This document shows, one piece after another, positions 4,631 through 34,600 of a stretch of DNA of 34,600 nt. Under the pieces are notes generated by a model that had not been told where the DNA came from, ran no database searches, and was given only the letters and a program-made list of their open reading frames with translations. How positions within the stretch are numbered: the stretch's first letter is position 1; every line of letters starts with the position of its first letter. Position numbers and translations under genes: made by a program. This stretch comes from a virus: positions 1 through 34,600 of IMG/VR virus record IMGVR_UViG_3300042896_000399, one strand, 5' to 3'.

Positions 4631-4786
4631 ATGAACAAAACAACCACAAAAGTAAAACTACTTCTTCAAACTTCAACTTATGAAGAAATTGCTGAAAGAA
4701 TAGGAATTTCAAGGACTACACTTTATAAAAGATTGCAGTGTAACGATTGGAAAGTTTCTGAAATTGTATTAATAACGACATTATGA
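4631..4786 (+). CDS. Small helix-turn-helix protein, 51 aa
   Basis: The frame starts at ATG 4631 and its stop overlaps the next start (ATGA at 4783). The core TYEEIAERIGISRTTLYKRL reads as a classic helix-turn-helix with recognition helix RTTLYKRL, as in resolvase/homeodomain-like or short phage DNA-binding proteins. The protein is little more than that domain. Its position directly before the primase suggests a regulator of, or accessory to, phage replication. That function is inferred only. Confidence 0.65.
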   Translation: MNKTTTKVKLLLQTSTYEEIAERIGISRTTLYKRLQCNDWKVSEIVLITTL

Positions 4787-5613
4787 GCGAATTTAAATAC
4801 ACTCTACGAACTGGATCTAAAAAAGACCTTTGTCCATCGTGCAACAAAAAAACGTACGTTCCTTACATTGAAACTGAAACAGGAAACGAAATTGATGCAG
4901 GGCGTTGTGACCGTGAACAACATTGCGGCTATTTCAAGAAACCCGAAAGTAACGAGCCTATTTTTACTCCAAAGCATGAAGTAATTGAATTAAAAATTGA
5001 CTACATCCAACCACAAATTTTAGAAAAACATTTCCTACTGCCAAACGAAAACAACTTCCTGCAATTCCTTCGCTCAAAATACCCAATAGAAAAAGTGAAA
5101 GAAGTTGAAAGTTTATATTTTTTGAGTGACTACGGAAGAAGCGTAATTTTTTGGCAAATAGATCAACTTGAAAGGATTCGAAGCGGTAAAATAATGGAAT
5201 ACAATCCGGCTACAGGAAAAAGAGTAAAAGACGAAAACGGAAAGTCTGCAATCAATTGGATGCATAAAAAACCTTTCAATTTAAAGCAGTGTCTTTTTGG
5301 ATTGCACCTTTCAAAAGAATATCCTGACAAAGTGATTGGAATAGTTGAAAGTGAAAAGACAGCAATAATAATGCAAATAAATGAACCTCGTTTAATTTGG
5401 ATGGCATGCGGTTCTTTGAATGGTTTCAAGACGGACTATTTAGCGCCGCTTCGATTAAGAAAAATAATCGCATTCCCGGATAAAGGATGTTTTGAAATTT
5501 GGAATCAAACAGCTGAAAAATTAAATGAAATCGGTTTTTCGATTGTGATAAATGAAGTTTTAGAAAATAACCCAGTCGCAAAAATTGGCGATGATATAGC
5601 GGATTTGATATGA
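4783..5613 (+). CDS. Primase-like protein with zinc ribbon and TOPRIM-like domain (DUF6371-like)
   Basis: In this 276-residue protein an N-terminal zinc-binding region contains C17-x2-C20 and, after a loop, C42 and H47/C48. Such a ribbon is typical of phage primases. The C-terminal half shows a TOPRIM-like pattern: VIGIVESEKT (184-193, with the conserved acidic residue), then WMACGSLNG (206-214) and IIAFPDKG (228-235). I associate this arrangement with DUF6371-type proteins of Bacteroidota mobile elements. It probably recognises template and makes primers with the DUF3987 protein that follows (inference). It overlaps both neighbours by ATGA/ATGATAG junctions. Confidence 0.75.
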   Translation: MSEFKYTLRTGSKKDLCPSCNKKTYVPYIETETGNEIDAGRCDREQHCGYFKKPESNEPIFTPKHEVIELKIDYIQPQILEKHFLLPNENNFLQFLRSKYPIEKVKEVESLYFLSDYGRSVIFWQIDQLERIRSGKIMEYNPATGKRVKDENGKSAINWMHKKPFNLKQCLFGLHLSKEYPDKVIGIVESEKTAIIMQINEPRLIWMACGSLNGFKTDYLAPLRLRKIIAFPDKGCFEIWNQTAEKLNEIGFSIVINEVLENNPVAKIGDDIADLI

Positions 5614-6914
5614 TAGATCTACAATTAGACAAAATTTTAAACCAAGCAGAAGACTACAAAAATTTCCCAATAGATGTATTCCCAGAGCAAGTAACCGCAT
5701 ATATGTATGAACTTCGTGATAAACTCGGATGTAACCCAAACTACATGGCTGGTGCGTTTCTTACTGCTGCTTCAATTTGCATTGGTAGATCTAAATCTTT
5801 GATCATTCGTGATACTTGGAGGGAATGGTGTGTTTTCTGGCCCATAATAATTGGCGACGCTGGTAGCAAGAAAACGCCAAGCACAAGTCCATTTTTAAAG
5901 CCAATCCGAGAAATTGAAAGTGAATTGTATAAAAACTACATTGCTAAAACAAAAGCGCATAGCGAAGATGTAAGCGAAGAAAAACCAACACAGCCACGTT
6001 TATACGTTGGGGATGCAACTATTGAAGCATACATTCAAATTCATTCCCAAAACCTGCGAGGAGTTGCAATAATATTAGATGAAATTTCGGGACTCGTCGC
6101 AAACTCTGGAAAATACAACAAAGGTTCTGATATTGAAAAGTATCTTTCTGCATTTTCTTATAGTGATATTTCTGCAGCACGTAAAGGCGTAGGCATGTCT
6201 TCAATTTTGTACGATCCGTATTTGCCAATTTTTGGAGGAATACAGCCAAAGATTTTGACTAATCTAATGACAGATCAATTAAAAGACAATGGTTTTTGGG
6301 ATAGGTTTTTGTTTCTTTCTGGTAACTTCCAAACCGGAAAAATGACGAAAGAAGATGTTTTGTCAACCGTTGCAAATGAATATAATTCTTATATCCAAGG
6401 AATGTATGAATTGATTTCTGACACTGAATATATCAAAGAAAATGGAGATTTGTTTGTCGATTATTACCGTATGAACTCCGAAGCTTCGGAATGTTGGTTT
6501 GATTACAATTCAAAAATAGAAGACATGATTTCGGATGGCTCGGAACTTTCTGCAAGTACAAAAAGTGCTTATTCAAAAATGGCTACGTACTTCGGACGTT
6601 TCATATTGCTTTTTCATATACTAGATTCATCATACGTGTACCCATTTCAAAAACTTCAAACAAAAGAAGTACAAATTGAATCAGTTGAAAAAGCTATACG
6701 TGTTGTAAAATATTTCATGTATCAATACGAATTGATATCTAAAGATGTTTCTGCTGAGAAAGAAGCTAAAAATATACTTCAAGACACTAAAGGAATGAGT
6801 ATTCAAGAAAAAGTAAAGTTGCTCCAGTCGAAAGATCCGGGAATGTCGCAAAGGAATATTGCAAAAACTTTTGGAATTTCAGTTGGAGCAGTAAATAAAT
6901 ATTTAAACAGTTAG
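5610..6914 (+). CDS. DUF3987 replication protein (primase-helicase-like ATPase)
   Basis: This 434-residue protein contains a Walker A-like loop GDAGSKKT (82-89) following WPIIIGD, and the acidic segment VAIILDEISG that would serve as Walker B. Both are typical of DUF3987 proteins found with phage and plasmid primases. The C-terminus ends in a helix-turn-helix, MSQRNIAKTFGISVGAVNKY, which could bind origin or iteron DNA. Its stop is followed within 60 bases by a terminator and then the origin-like repeat array, supporting a role as replication initiator or helicase (inference). The start overlaps the primase stop. Confidence 0.8.
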   Translation: MIDLQLDKILNQAEDYKNFPIDVFPEQVTAYMYELRDKLGCNPNYMAGAFLTAASICIGRSKSLIIRDTWREWCVFWPIIIGDAGSKKTPSTSPFLKPIREIESELYKNYIAKTKAHSEDVSEEKPTQPRLYVGDATIEAYIQIHSQNLRGVAIILDEISGLVANSGKYNKGSDIEKYLSAFSYSDISAARKGVGMSSILYDPYLPIFGGIQPKILTNLMTDQLKDNGFWDRFLFLSGNFQTGKMTKEDVLSTVANEYNSYIQGMYELISDTEYIKENGDLFVDYYRMNSEASECWFDYNSKIEDMISDGSELSASTKSAYSKMATYFGRFILLFHILDSSYVYPFQKLQTKEVQIESVEKAIRVVKYFMYQYELISKDVSAEKEAKNILQDTKGMSIQEKVKLLQSKDPGMSQRNIAKTFGISVGAVNKYLNS

Positions 6915-6939: not shown

Positions 6940-6965
6940 AACTCGCTAACAAGCGGGTTTTTTTT
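6940..6965 (+). terminator. Intrinsic terminator ending the replication operon
   Basis: AACTCGCT (6940-6947) pairs with AGCGGGTT (6952-6959, one G-T pair) around a 4-nt loop, followed by a run of T to 6965. Confidence 0.75.
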
Positions 6966-7340
6966 GTTCATTTAATTTCCTACAAAAAAATGATAAAAAC
7001 AACAAAAAACATTAAAATATCGTTCACGATGAACATTAAAATGAACGCTATATGAACACGTAACTTATTAAAAATCAATTACTTACAACAAAATGAACGC
7101 CGTGAACGCAATTTTGAATATTATTTTAAAAACAGTGTTTTCTTCCTACAAATATTCCTATAATAATATATTATATATGTAAGAATAATATTGTTAATAT
7201 ATTATTATACTATACATGCGAGCTTTTTTTTATAGTATTTACGTTAGTGTTCACGTTCATTTTGTGAACATCTATTTAATACGTTGTGAATCAATTAGTT
7301 AAGCGTTCATTTAGTCCTTTTTAGTGTTCATATCGTGAAC
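6966..7340. other. Candidate replication origin: GTTCA/TGAAC iterons around an AT-rich core
   Basis: Thirteen copies of GTTCA or its complement TGAAC occur at 6966, 7022, 7030, 7042, 7053, 7094, 7103, 7249, 7255, 7265, 7305, 7326 and 7336. Fewer than one or two would be expected by chance in this length. Several form palindromes: 7022-7034 (3-nt spacer), 7255-7269 and 7326-7340 (5-nt spacers). Left of the core most copies read TGAAC, right of it mostly GTTCA. The core (about 7108-7230) is almost pure A/T. The region lies directly after the primase and helicase genes. It could instead be an operator array. Confidence 0.6.
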
Positions 7341-7445
7341 AGTAGAAAGTTTTTACATATTTTGTTTGCAGTAATGAAAAAGATTATTACATTTGCTAAA
7401 CAATAAACAATCAGAATCGGGGATTGATCGGAATCACAAAATTTA

Positions 7446-7497
7446 ATCCCTTACGTGCCAAAGCTGATTCCTTTGGATTTCGTAGGGGATATTTTTT
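7446..7497 (+). terminator. Long two-part hairpin with T-run (terminator or leader RNA)
   Basis: ATCCCTTACG (7446-7455) pairs with CGTAGGGGAT (7481-7490, one G-T pair). Inside it CCAAAG (7458-7463) pairs with CTTTGG (7471-7476). Six T follow at 7492-7497. This is unusually elaborate for a terminator. It lies only 13 bases before the start of the next gene, so it may attenuate that gene or end a small RNA transcribed out of the origin region. Confidence 0.6.
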
Positions 7498-7510: not shown

Positions 7511-8065
7511 ATGAATAACACAGTTTTACAAGAAGGAAGTTTTTCAATTACAAAAGACCAACTTCGTCAATTGACAGATCCAAAAGTTAAAGAGTGGTTT
7601 CCAGAAGTTTTTAAAGTAAAGTTAGAAGTTGGAAAGTGGTATAAAAGGATTTGGAAGGATGGAGATAGAGATATAGATTTATTTTTAATTTCAGATTTTA
7701 TTGATAATAAGTTCGTTATAGGTGAATTTTTTAGAAATAATGAAAGACTTGAAGAAGGTGTTGGTTATAGATTCGTTATTAGCAATAACAAAAGGTATTC
7801 TGAAATTGAAGCCAATAACGAAGAAGTTTTTGAGGTTTTGAAAATTGAAGCGGTTAGAAGAGGGTTTGTTGAGGGCGTTTATTTTAAAAGTCCTGTTAGT
7901 GGCGATAATTATAAATTTACAAATATTTATTTTACCGAAGCAACAGACATGGCTTGGTCTAAAAATGGAGGGGTAATTTTCGAAAAAGGCAACTGGGCAA
8001 CCATTATTCCAACAATTACAAAATCAGAAGCTGAAAAATTGTTAAACATCAAAATTATAGATTAG
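7511..8065 (+). CDS. Conserved phage hypothetical protein, 184 aa
   Basis: I chose the ATG at 7511 because the longer frame from 7424 begins with TTG and would run through the hairpin at 7446-7497. The protein contains two GKWY-like elements (VGKWYKR near residue 45 and KGNWATII near 165) and the central motif VLKIEAVRRGFVEGV. This layout resembles a family I remember from Bacteroidota phages, probably with SH3-like beta domains, whose function is unknown. It is flanked by hairpin terminators on both sides, so it is a single-gene unit. It could be an early or accessory regulator next to the origin. Confidence 0.7.
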   Translation: MNNTVLQEGSFSITKDQLRQLTDPKVKEWFPEVFKVKLEVGKWYKRIWKDGDRDIDLFLISDFIDNKFVIGEFFRNNERLEEGVGYRFVISNNKRYSEIEANNEEVFEVLKIEAVRRGFVEGVYFKSPVSGDNYKFTNIYFTEATDMAWSKNGGVIFEKGNWATIIPTITKSEAEKLLNIKIID

Positions 8066-8116: not shown

Positions 8117-8548
8117 ATGCATCCAACACGAATATTTAGAACTCCAGACGAATTAGAACAGGCTTGGAAACTTTATAAAGAATCACTTGAAAAGCAAGAA
8201 GAATGGTTTAAGATTCAGTACGTAGGTAAAGAAGGGGAAAGAGTAACGGACGCTTTTAAAATGCCTTATACTTTTGATGGTTTTGAAGTTTTTTGTTATG
8301 AAAATTACGGGTGTGTTGAACAATATTTTAAAAATGCAGGCGGGCTTTATGATGACTTTATACCCCTCTGTTCGCATATAAAAAAAGAAATTCGATCAAA
8401 TCAGATTACAGGTGGGTTATTAGGGGTTTATAATCCAAGTATCACACAACGTTTGAACAACCTTGTTGAAAAAGTTGAGGACGTTACGCCGCAATCTCCA
8501 AAAAAAATAATCATAAAAGTAAACAGACGTGAAGATAATAATCCTTAA
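8117..8548 (+). CDS. Probable terminase small subunit
   Basis: This 143-residue, mainly helical protein lies directly before the terminase large subunit. The start HPTRIFRTPDELEQAWKLYKE and the later CSHIKKEIRSNQITGGLLGVYN stretch resemble Bacteroidota phage small terminases. In these, N-terminal helices bind the packaging site and a central helical bundle makes a ring. The basic tail KKIIIKVNRRED is typical. The protein would recognise phage DNA and hand it to the large subunit. The assignment rests on position and recalled pattern rather than a diagnostic motif. Confidence 0.7.
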   Translation: MHPTRIFRTPDELEQAWKLYKESLEKQEEWFKIQYVGKEGERVTDAFKMPYTFDGFEVFCYENYGCVEQYFKNAGGLYDDFIPLCSHIKKEIRSNQITGGLLGVYNPSITQRLNNLVEKVEDVTPQSPKKIIIKVNRREDNNP

Positions 8549-29952: not shown

Positions 29953-29983
29953 AAAAAAGCTACTCACAACGAGTAGCTTTTTT
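29953..29983. terminator. Bidirectional terminator between converging transcripts
   Basis: AAAAAAGCTACTC (29953-29965) pairs perfectly with GAGTAGCTTTTTT (29971-29983) around ACAAC. The A-run on one side and T-run on the other make it work on both strands. It ends the peptide at 29866 on the plus strand and the recombination operon on the minus strand. Confidence 0.85.
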
Positions 29984-30641
29984 CATTTTCCGCAATCTTT
30001 GCGTACGGTATTTTGCTTAAAAATCCTTCTTTATCCGAATGCTTTTCGCTTCCATGTATCAATAGAACAAGCGAAGATTTTTCAGCGTTATGAGCTTCTA
30101 AAATCGTTTTACATCTATCGATTGACATGTGAGATTGTTGTATTCTTTTCTTTAATGAAATGTCTAAACTGGAATGTTTTAATTTTTCTGTAGAATAGTT
30201 CGCCTCTATTAACCAATAATCTATATTTTTTAATCGAACTTTTAAATCATTAGTATCGGTTATAAACGCCAATCTTTTACCTTCAAATTCTATTAAAAAG
30301 CCGCACGGCTCTTTTGCGTCATGGAAAATTTCGAATGGGGTTATGCGAAATAGTCCGATTTCGAAAGGTTTTAAATATTCGATTCTATTGTAGTTCCCTG
30401 TGCCCTTTGTGCAAAAAATTCTTTTCCCAAATTTTACAAAATCCTTTATAAAAGCGTTATGATCCCCATGCTCATGACTAACCAACACGCCGACAACTTG
30501 TGAAATATCAAAATTCAAAGCTTTTTTTACTTTTGTAAAATTTACCCCTGCTTCGATTACTAATGTCTGTCCATTGACGGTTAACAGATAGCAGTTTCCA
30601 CCGCTACCCGTTCCGAGAACTTTCAAGCTATAGTTCTGCAT
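29964..30641 (-). CDS. MBL-fold metallohydrolase next to RecT
   Basis: This 225-residue protein starts at the ATG complementary to 30639-30641, giving the usual beginning SLKVLGTGSGGNCYLL; a frame start 66 bases upstream overlaps RecT too far. The HxHxDH metal motif is SHEHGDH (55-61); further ligands are likely in HDAKE, FITDTND and IHGSEKH. It resembles YycJ-like MBL proteins, some of which are DNA exonucleases. In many phages such a gene sits beside recT. It may supply the exonuclease that makes ssDNA for RecT (inference). Its stop lies in the bidirectional terminator. Confidence 0.8.
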   Translation of the reverse strand: MQNYSLKVLGTGSGGNCYLLTVNGQTLVIEAGVNFTKVKKALNFDISQVVGVLVSHEHGDHNAFIKDFVKFGKRIFCTKGTGNYNRIEYLKPFEIGLFRITPFEIFHDAKEPCGFLIEFEGKRLAFITDTNDLKVRLKNIDYWLIEANYSTEKLKHSSLDISLKKRIQQSHMSIDRCKTILEAHNAEKSSLVLLIHGSEKHSDKEGFLSKIPYAKIAENEKSYSL

Positions 30642-31350
30642 CAGGATCAAACGGTAATTCTTCCGTGTTTTCTGGTTCGAATTCCAATTCATTTGGTTGC
30701 GTGGCATAGTATTCTGCCAATTCCGTTGTGTTTAACACAACTTTACCCCAGGCATTTTTCCCTACTGTTTTTTCACACATTTCATTTTTCCAATTAGTCC
30801 AGAAAGGCGAATTTGTTTTTACGCGTTTTTCAATCTCTTTCATTGACATGATGCGCACTTTGTTGTAAATTGGGTTCTGATATTCAGATAATGAAACACC
30901 GCCTACAATGTCTCCGCGATCAAAAGCATTCACAACTTCCAGCACATACCCCTCGGAGGGGTGCGATAAATCTTTTTTAATGATTGAAAATTTGTCTGTT
31001 GAAAAAATCAATTCAACCGTTATATTTTCGGGGCAATTGATGCCGTAACGCCTTGCTAATAACTCCATACAGCGGACATCTTCAACAAAAACCACGTCGC
31101 TTTTGCCGTTTGATTTATTTGCAAAAAAAGTGAACGATAACATTTTTGGAGCAAGTGGATCGATTCCGATGTTAGCGTAGGCGATAGACTTGCTTAAAAA
31201 GTCATCAAAATTGATTTGCGCCCATGTTTTAGGGCTTGTTTGTTTCGGCAATTCATTGTCTAGCTTTGTGAAGTAATTCACTGCTAAATCTTCATTTTTG
31301 CATCCGTATGCTTTTACTCGTTGTAAGAAAGTCTCTTTTAAATCTGCCAT
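30628..31350 (-). CDS. recT: RecT-family single-strand annealing protein
   Basis: This 240-residue protein has the RecT core: DFLSKSIAYANIGIDPLAPK (N-terminal helix and 'gldP' motif), VFVEDVRCMELLARRYG, the strand region GYVLEVVNAFDRGDIVGGVS, and SMKEIEKRVKTNSPFWTNW followed by the helix EMCEKTVGKNAWGK. It anneals complementary ssDNA in phage recombination and genome circularisation. The acidic C-terminus (ELPFDPDAEL) may contact partner proteins. It overlaps the MBL gene by 14 bases. Confidence 0.85.
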   Translation of the reverse strand: MADLKETFLQRVKAYGCKNEDLAVNYFTKLDNELPKQTSPKTWAQINFDDFLSKSIAYANIGIDPLAPKMLSFTFFANKSNGKSDVVFVEDVRCMELLARRYGINCPENITVELIFSTDKFSIIKKDLSHPSEGYVLEVVNAFDRGDIVGGVSLSEYQNPIYNKVRIMSMKEIEKRVKTNSPFWTNWKNEMCEKTVGKNAWGKVVLNTTELAEYYATQPNELEFEPENTEELPFDPDAEL

Positions 31351-34059: not shown

Positions 34060-34600
34060 ATGAAAATTAAAGGAGATTTAATTGTAACAAAAGAGAATCA
34101 AAAAGATTTTAAAAAATTGACCGAAGTATCAGGATCTGTTTACGTTCGAGAGGGCGCAACATTCACCGCGCCAGCTTTGACCGAAGTATCAGGATCTGTT
34201 TACGTTCGAGAGGGCGCAACATTCACCGCGCCAGCTTTGACCGAAGTATCAGGATATGTTGACGTTCGAGAGGGCGCAACATTCACCGCGCCAGCTTTGA
34301 CGAAATCAGGATATGTTGACGTTCGAGAGGGCACAACATTCACCGCGCCAGCTTTGACGAAATCAGGATATGTTGACGTTCGAGAGGGCACAACATTCAC
34401 CGCGCCAGCTTTGACGAAATCAGGATATGTTGACGTTCAAGAGGGCGCAACATTCACCGCGCCAGCTTTGACGAAATCAGGATATGTTGACGTTCAAGAG
34501 GGCGCAACATTCACCGCGCCAGCTTTGACCGAAGTATCAGGATCTGTTTACGTTCGAGAGGGCGCAACATTCACCGCGCCAGCTTTGACCGAAGTATCAG
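34060..34600 (+). CDS. 5' part of tandem-repeat protein (continues at 1-1011)
   Basis: The ATG at 34060 opens a frame without stop to the window end. The non-repetitive leader MKIKGDLIVTKENQKDFKK precedes LTEVSGS, then the repeat units start at 34138. 'kGDLiv...' followed by T-Vs-Gs-V-VrEGA units resembles beta-solenoid repeat proteins whose rungs begin with a similar 'GdL.v' strand. There is no signal peptide or membrane helix. It is the first gene of the rightward early transcript and is followed, after the seam, by its C-terminal domain and the helicase. It stops mid-codon at 34600; five bases (the rest of GGA and TCT) would restore the frame at base 1. Confidence 0.8.
   Translation, partial: MKIKGDLIVTKENQKDFKKLTEVSGSVYVREGATFTAPALTEVSGSVYVREGATFTAPALTEVSGYVDVREGATFTAPALTKSGYVDVREGTTFTAPALTKSGYVDVREGTTFTAPALTKSGYVDVQEGATFTAPALTKSGYVDVQEGATFTAPALTEVSGSVYVREGATFTAPALTEVS
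34138..34600 (+). repeat. In-frame 57/60-nt tandem repeats, eight units (right end)
   Basis: Units start at 34138, 34198, 34258, 34315, 34372, 34429, 34486 and 34546, the last lacking five bases. Sequence and variants are the same as in 1-519. Confidence 0.95.

Follow-up and report, generated by a model that had tools for sequence, protein, structure and literature searches.

The origins of PICI/SaPI elements consist of two iteron sets that flank an AT-rich region (PMC6092414), and SaPI Rep helicases recognise the origin by their C-terminal domain and appear to bind the iterons as two hexamers (PMC7581432). DUF3987 proteins fused to AEP primases have been predicted to be replicative helicases of mobile elements, in a study with no mention of iterons, an origin or a recognition code (PMC5862659). 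The locus described here lies in an IMG/VR virus record of 34.6 kb, referred to below as W, whose 34,600 nucleotides together form the window analysed; comparison loci carry L-numbers. As in PICIs and SaPIs, the W family has two iteron sets around an AT-rich region, with a putative origin beside the gene of its putative initiator. In W and its clade, as in PICI/SaPI, the putative origin follows the initiator gene directly on its 3' side, whereas many family members have it on the 5' side. SaPI Rep carries DUF927 or D5/Primase_Cterm domains, while W-family Pfam matches are to DUF3987 and HTH only. Unlike PICI/SaPI satellites, the W family comprises phages with their own terminase, and in W a large terminase and structural-looking ORFs, as read from the sequence, follow the small terminase. 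The alpha protein of phage P4 combines primase, helicase and a C-terminal DNA-binding domain that reads short repeats, and the phage requires ori and crr as separate repeat regions, whereas only one dense cluster occurs in the W window, in a record that may be incomplete. In ori-lambda, as in W, phage iterons adjoin an AT-rich stretch. The lambda O protein, which is no helicase, recruits host DnaB and has its iterons inside its own gene; in W, by contrast, the array lies outside the gene and the proposed initiator is a predicted helicase. MCM also has a C-terminal winged helix, but to our knowledge MCM itself does not select an origin by sequence. The W helicase shares with MCM a predicted AAA+ fold; unlike MCM, it has no match to the Pfam MCM profile at E<=0.1, and it starts just before the ATPase domain, which leaves no room for an MCM N-terminal domain. 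A search of the open-access literature found no earlier report of this origin family. The W-type array is best explained as an origin organised like those of PICI/SaPI and served by an unrelated, uncharacterised helicase family.

Positions 6966-7340 of W (375 bp) hold 13 exact copies of GTTCA/TGAAC compared with 0.8 expected. Dinucleotide shuffles of this interval contain 0.82 copies on average and at most 5, and 0 of 5000 reach 13, so the enrichment claimed in a preliminary description of this DNA is real. The motif is densest here within the window, which as a whole has no excess (71 copies compared with 80 expected), and its extended consensus reads nATGAACRC. A change of orientation across the core, also claimed at that stage, holds as a partial switch and not as a full one: the left half has 2 GTTCA and 5 TGAAC, the right half 4 GTTCA and 2 TGAAC, and relatives have mixed orientations. 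The seventh left-side iteron is an outlier at 6966 that adjoins a terminator-like hairpin; this site aside, the array is better read as six plus six sites (Table 1). The half-arrays are separated by a gap of about 137 bp with 83% AT, and 'AT-only', as this core had been called, is too strong because 7108-7248 is about 83% AT. Within the core are TGTAAGAA, TTCCTACA and TATATGTAAGAATAATATTGTTAATAT, the last of which is conserved in nine relatives. Sites that fit the IHF consensus occur on both flanks in W and in 12 of 54 arrays across the family compared with 2.2 expected, and an element AAGCCTTATAAACATTGA or TATCATTGA is common to arrays with differing iterons. GC skew, a check suggested in the preliminary description, has no switch at the array; it tracks gene direction only and was dropped as origin evidence, being neither for nor against. 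An Rfam search of the array region gave no match above threshold.

Table 1. Features of the putative origin region of W and its neighbouring genes (positions in the window)
Feature	Position	Strand	Basis or remark
Small HTH protein, alternative candidate binder (less likely)	4631..4786	+	
Putative primase (Zn ribbon + DUF6371), upstream of helicase	4783..5613	+	Pfam DUF6371 E=9.7e-48, Zn_ribbon_16
DUF3987 helicase with C-terminal HTH, proposed initiator	5610..6914	+	Pfam DUF3987 E=1.1e-47, HTH_24 E=1.9e-5
C-terminal HTH, residues ~399-434, helix ISVGAVNKYLN, proposed iteron reader	6804..6911	+	Model, co-variation
Terminator-like hairpin and T run	6940..6965	+	CTCGCTaacAAGCGGGTTTTTTTT; same position in relatives
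Left half-array	7022..7107	.	Six TGAAC/GTTCA at 7022, 7030, 7042, 7053, 7094, 7103
Site fitting IHF consensus, left flank	7073..7085	+	IHF consensus WATCAANNNNTTR
AT-rich core, putative DNA unwinding element	7108..7248	.	83% AT; conserved core pattern
Right half-array	7249..7340	.	Six iterons at 7249, 7255, 7265, 7305, 7326, 7336
Site fitting IHF consensus, right flank	7289..7301	+	

A second motif, TTCYTACA/TGTAAGAA, occurs at 6977, 7143 and 7178 in W and is conserved in the W clade and in the more distant phage L013. The product of ORF 4631-4786 was considered as its reader and dropped because the recognition helix changes in L006 while the motif stays.

The three genes upstream of the array (4631-4786, 4783-5613 and 5610-6914) lie on the same strand. 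Pfam matches to DUF6371, DUF3987 and HTH_24 bear out the earlier placement of the array after primase and DUF3987 genes, the latter ending in an HTH; the DUF3987 (PF13148) match scores 163.4 bits compared with a cut-off of 27. The predicted hairpin closes the putative W replication operon at ~6960, directly before the array. Downstream, a terminase small-subunit family match lies at 8117-8545. Gene content, promoter-like sequences and database hits suggest that W is a phage of Bacteroidota, probably of Flavobacteriia. Several other observations concern the rest of the record. Non-coding positions 7405-7497, between the array and the gene at 7511, have a 35-nt core that is identical in L006 and L022; they fold into a long, terminator- or attenuator-like hairpin with a U run after it (z -2.3 and -2.9) and have no Rfam match. 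Positions 1-518 and 34117-34600, the two ends of the record, share a 57/60-bp tandem repeat within a repetitive protein gene; the genome was therefore probably circular or permuted, with the break in this repeat. Positions 29964-30707 encode a metallo-beta-lactamase-fold protein with a weak match to Anti-Pycsar Apyc1 (E 4e-4, below cut-off).

Eight IMG/VR contigs encode helicases 79-97% identical to that of W (71% for the fragment L008). All that are long enough have the terminator, left sites, a near-invariant core (ATATGTAAGAA(N6)TGTTAATAT) and right sites, and in IMG/VR this core pattern is limited to W-clade contigs and L013. A first scan of genome contigs found no close relatives, and searches for a cultured phage with the full helicase/array family found none. 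The iterons vary within this constant frame: TGAAC in W and L001, mostly TTGAACG in L003-L005, CATGAAC with some CGAAC in L002, L007 and L008, CGAAC in L006, and GGTTGC, which is unrelated to TGAAC, in L013/L194. A layout that is kept while the iteron changes is the mark of a co-evolving reader. Excluding the last 45 residues, the helicases of W and L006 share 99% identity; their HTHs differ by 8 nonsynonymous and 10 synonymous changes, compared with 7 and 115 in the remaining body, and the motif shifts from TGAAC in W to CGAAC in L006. A small HTH gene follows the array directly in L006 (7931-8245), L007 (7593-7895), L008 (765-1067) and L004 (7920-8234). Its helix mimics that of the phage's own helicase (APSSVNKYL and SVSTVNKYL in L006; SVGSVNKAL and SLGSINKIL in L007), and its product is a possible iteron-binding replication regulator.

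Alignment searches added >150 further loci beyond the close relatives. Distant loci are mostly Prim-Pol-DUF3987-HTH fusions of ~750 residues, in which the Prim-Pol domain takes the place of the separate upstream primase; Prim-Pol PF09250 was found in L060, L064, L105 and L142. Nearly all have a lineage-specific short motif repeated 8-16 times in <430 bp beside the helicase, and motifs across the family include GTTCA, CGAAC, GGTTGC, GTTAAC, TGTAAC, TGTGAC and TGCGCA. The array is downstream of the helicase gene in some phages and upstream in others. Taking one representative for each of 54 different recognition helices, 98% of DUF3987-HTH loci pass the array score compared with 2.1% of 328 other windows from the same contigs. 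Because the representatives were chosen partly by array score, 127 of 139 is the fairer figure, counted over loci that have an HTH and enough flanking sequence; ten of the 12 failing loci have GGTTTA as their top word, as do their passing relatives. A second sample had arrays at 99 loci and none at 14 with full flanks, and several of its misses, such as L196 and L202, have an array a little beyond the stretch searched. The regular expression used for the HTH misses some helices. A second contig scan returned mostly host-genome DUF3987 proteins without an HTH, whose best repeat scores are mostly near background; this control set is small and not clean, and is only suggestive. One of its members, L182 (Alicyclobacillus cellulosilyticus), has a strong ACTCTG/CTCTGC cluster downstream of a DUF3987 gene that lacks a C-terminal HTH.

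Arrays across the family have one layout in common, in which two half-arrays, most often of six sites each, flank an AT-rich core. The longest inter-site gap is ~55 bp across the 54 arrays (interquartile 48-60) and 103-137 bp in the W clade; its AT content is 0.88 compared with 0.74 in other gaps, and is the higher of the two in 46 of 54 arrays. This gap is central, with a mean asymmetry of 0.174 compared with 0.454 for a random gap (lowest value 0.337 over 2000 trials). Flanks most often hold six sites (40 of 108), and 77 of 108 have 5-7, counts that depend on the detection threshold. A second array, CCACTA/AGTGGA in up to 12 copies, occurs in the first 1.5 kb of loci L043, L066, L084 and L097, ~3 kb upstream of both the helicase and the array beside it.

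Over nearly 100 variants of the recognition helix, motif changes follow this helix in the helicase's C-terminal HTH. A motif matrix was built for each array, with the motif written T-G-Y-m4-A-m6 and helix positions numbered p1-p5 in S-p1-p2-p3-I-p4-p5; m4 was scored as strong or weak because TGTAAC and TGTTAC are the same pseudo-palindromic site on either strand. Motif and helix distances are correlated (Mantel r 0.49), also after removal of helicase-body distance (partial Mantel r=0.44, 0/2000 permutations), and within-clade permutations give p=0.0005 at all four clade definitions. Arginine at p5 pairs with C at m6 in 17/17 cases and asparagine in 0/14; arginine at p2 pairs with G/C at m4 in 9/10 cases and other residues, with lysine set apart, in 0/28. 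A simple rule (p5 N/R gives A/C; p2 Q/R gives A/G), which summarises co-variation and is not a specificity measurement, fitted 97% of the first set. Applied to 39 unseen helices, the rule made 39 correct calls out of 49 (Fisher 7e-5 for p5 and 0.028 for p2), so that confirmation of its p2 part on unseen helices is only moderate. Exceptions to the p2 rule are systematic and consist of SRR..QN helices with TGCA/TGYGCA motifs, L221 and L252, and W-type helices with Gly or Ser at p2 lie outside the simple rule. Single pairs tell the same story at close range. L103, L104 and L105 have helicases that are 95-96% identical outside the HTH, and their helices SRRHIIN, SRQQVIR and SRRQVIR pair with TGTGAA, TGTAAC and TGTGAC, respectively; linkage does not explain this pairing because the arrays lie upstream, >2 kb from the HTH codons. 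Between L139 and L137, Lys or Asn at p5 pairs with TGTAAAC or TGTAAA. The best explanation is that the helicase's own C-terminal HTH reads the array, and this co-variation supports binding of the iterons by a C-terminal domain, as in PICI/SaPI.

Structural models place the helicase body near MCM. The AlphaFold model of the W helicase has a pLDDT of 76, with HTH helices at 398-408, 414-421 and 425-433 (pLDDT 80-88), and that of the L064 fusion protein has a pLDDT of 71.5. All 50 structural matches listed for W are MCM proteins (Z 12.4-14.0), and so are all 50 listed for L064 (Z 12.4-15.1 over the two models, ~265 residues, rmsd ~4), although the two models have alignment rows in common and are not fully independent. 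Foldseek on its own reaches an E of only about 5e-3, and a sequence search of the PDB found no relative. SaPI Rep, D5 and other AAA+ families are absent among the listed structural matches, which says nothing against kinship. We read the DUF3987 protein as a probable MCM-like AAA+ ring ATPase, where the ring and oligomeric state follow from the predicted MCM-like fold, and where an MCM-type match attests a shared fold and is no proof of common function.

The W array is thus very probably a replication origin, and the DUF3987 protein a self-loading initiator helicase that reads its iterons; we put the probability of this reading at roughly 85%. The preliminary proposal of a theta-type origin bound by the DUF3987 HTH gains support from motif/helix co-variation and from the two half-arrays around an AT-rich core, which constantly neighbour the helicase gene. 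DNA binding, ring loading, melting, origin activity and bidirectionality in the W system are all inferred from sequence. As proposed, the DUF3987 protein would be a hexameric MCM-like AAA+ helicase that also serves as the origin-recognition protein, with the C-terminal HTH of each subunit reading one iteron (TGAAC in W). Subunits would gather on both half-arrays to give one ring per half-array, and the rings would open the AT-rich core between them and depart in opposite directions with the neighbouring or fused primase, which would amount to theta replication. The usual six sites per side would fit one hexamer per side as a working hypothesis, with 5 and 7 sites also common. A wider proposal, which we offer tentatively and rate at somewhat under even odds, is that these phages, whose hosts are probably Bacteroidota, have an MCM-like initiator that loads itself, with six plus six iterons around an AT core acting as the template for its two hexamers. 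The C-terminal HTH and the iteron would then form a swappable compatibility module with a largely predictable code, and its diversification would keep a phage from firing the origins of co-infecting relatives.

The strongest competitor, itself unlikely, is an operator array through which the DUF3987 HTH or a small HTH protein controls transcription of the helicase operon or of downstream genes, with no origin role. Repeated sites are bound by HTH proteins, arrays beside genes can be operators, L004, L006, L007 and L008 have their small HTH gene directly after the array, and the W array precedes the terminase module. However, W has no HTH gene after its array, its 12-13 sites, evenly divided on either side of an AT-rich core, far exceed the need of an operator, the reader is fused to a replicative-type helicase, and the change of array position from downstream to upstream of the gene among phages fits poorly with this reading; transcription control and origin function may coexist. 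It is less probable still that the region is an origin read by the small HTH protein 4631-4786 or its relatives. This protein and the helicase HTH had both been named as candidate binders, and its helix does differ between W and L006, two phages with unlike motifs, and is identical in W and L001, both of which have TGAAC; the helicase HTH alone co-varies across the whole family, however, and no counterpart of 4631-4786 was seen at L030 and L060, where a Prim-Pol-fusion helicase accompanies an array of this kind. A packaging (pac) or partition site near terminase genes is the least probable reading, since the constant neighbour in the family is the helicase and the motif follows its HTH, even though a terminase small-subunit gene lies within ~1 kb after the array in W and L022.

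An origin read by the initiator helicase itself would assign a function and a DNA target to DUF3987, a large uncharacterised helicase family, and predicts where the origin lies in well over a hundred contigs of uncultured phages. The family offers about 90 naturally occurring initiator/iteron pairs on which a recognition rule can be tested, and it would show in phages an origin layout that has been reported as exclusive to PICIs. The usual six plus six sites would allow a direct test, in a simple system, of how rings load at an origin.
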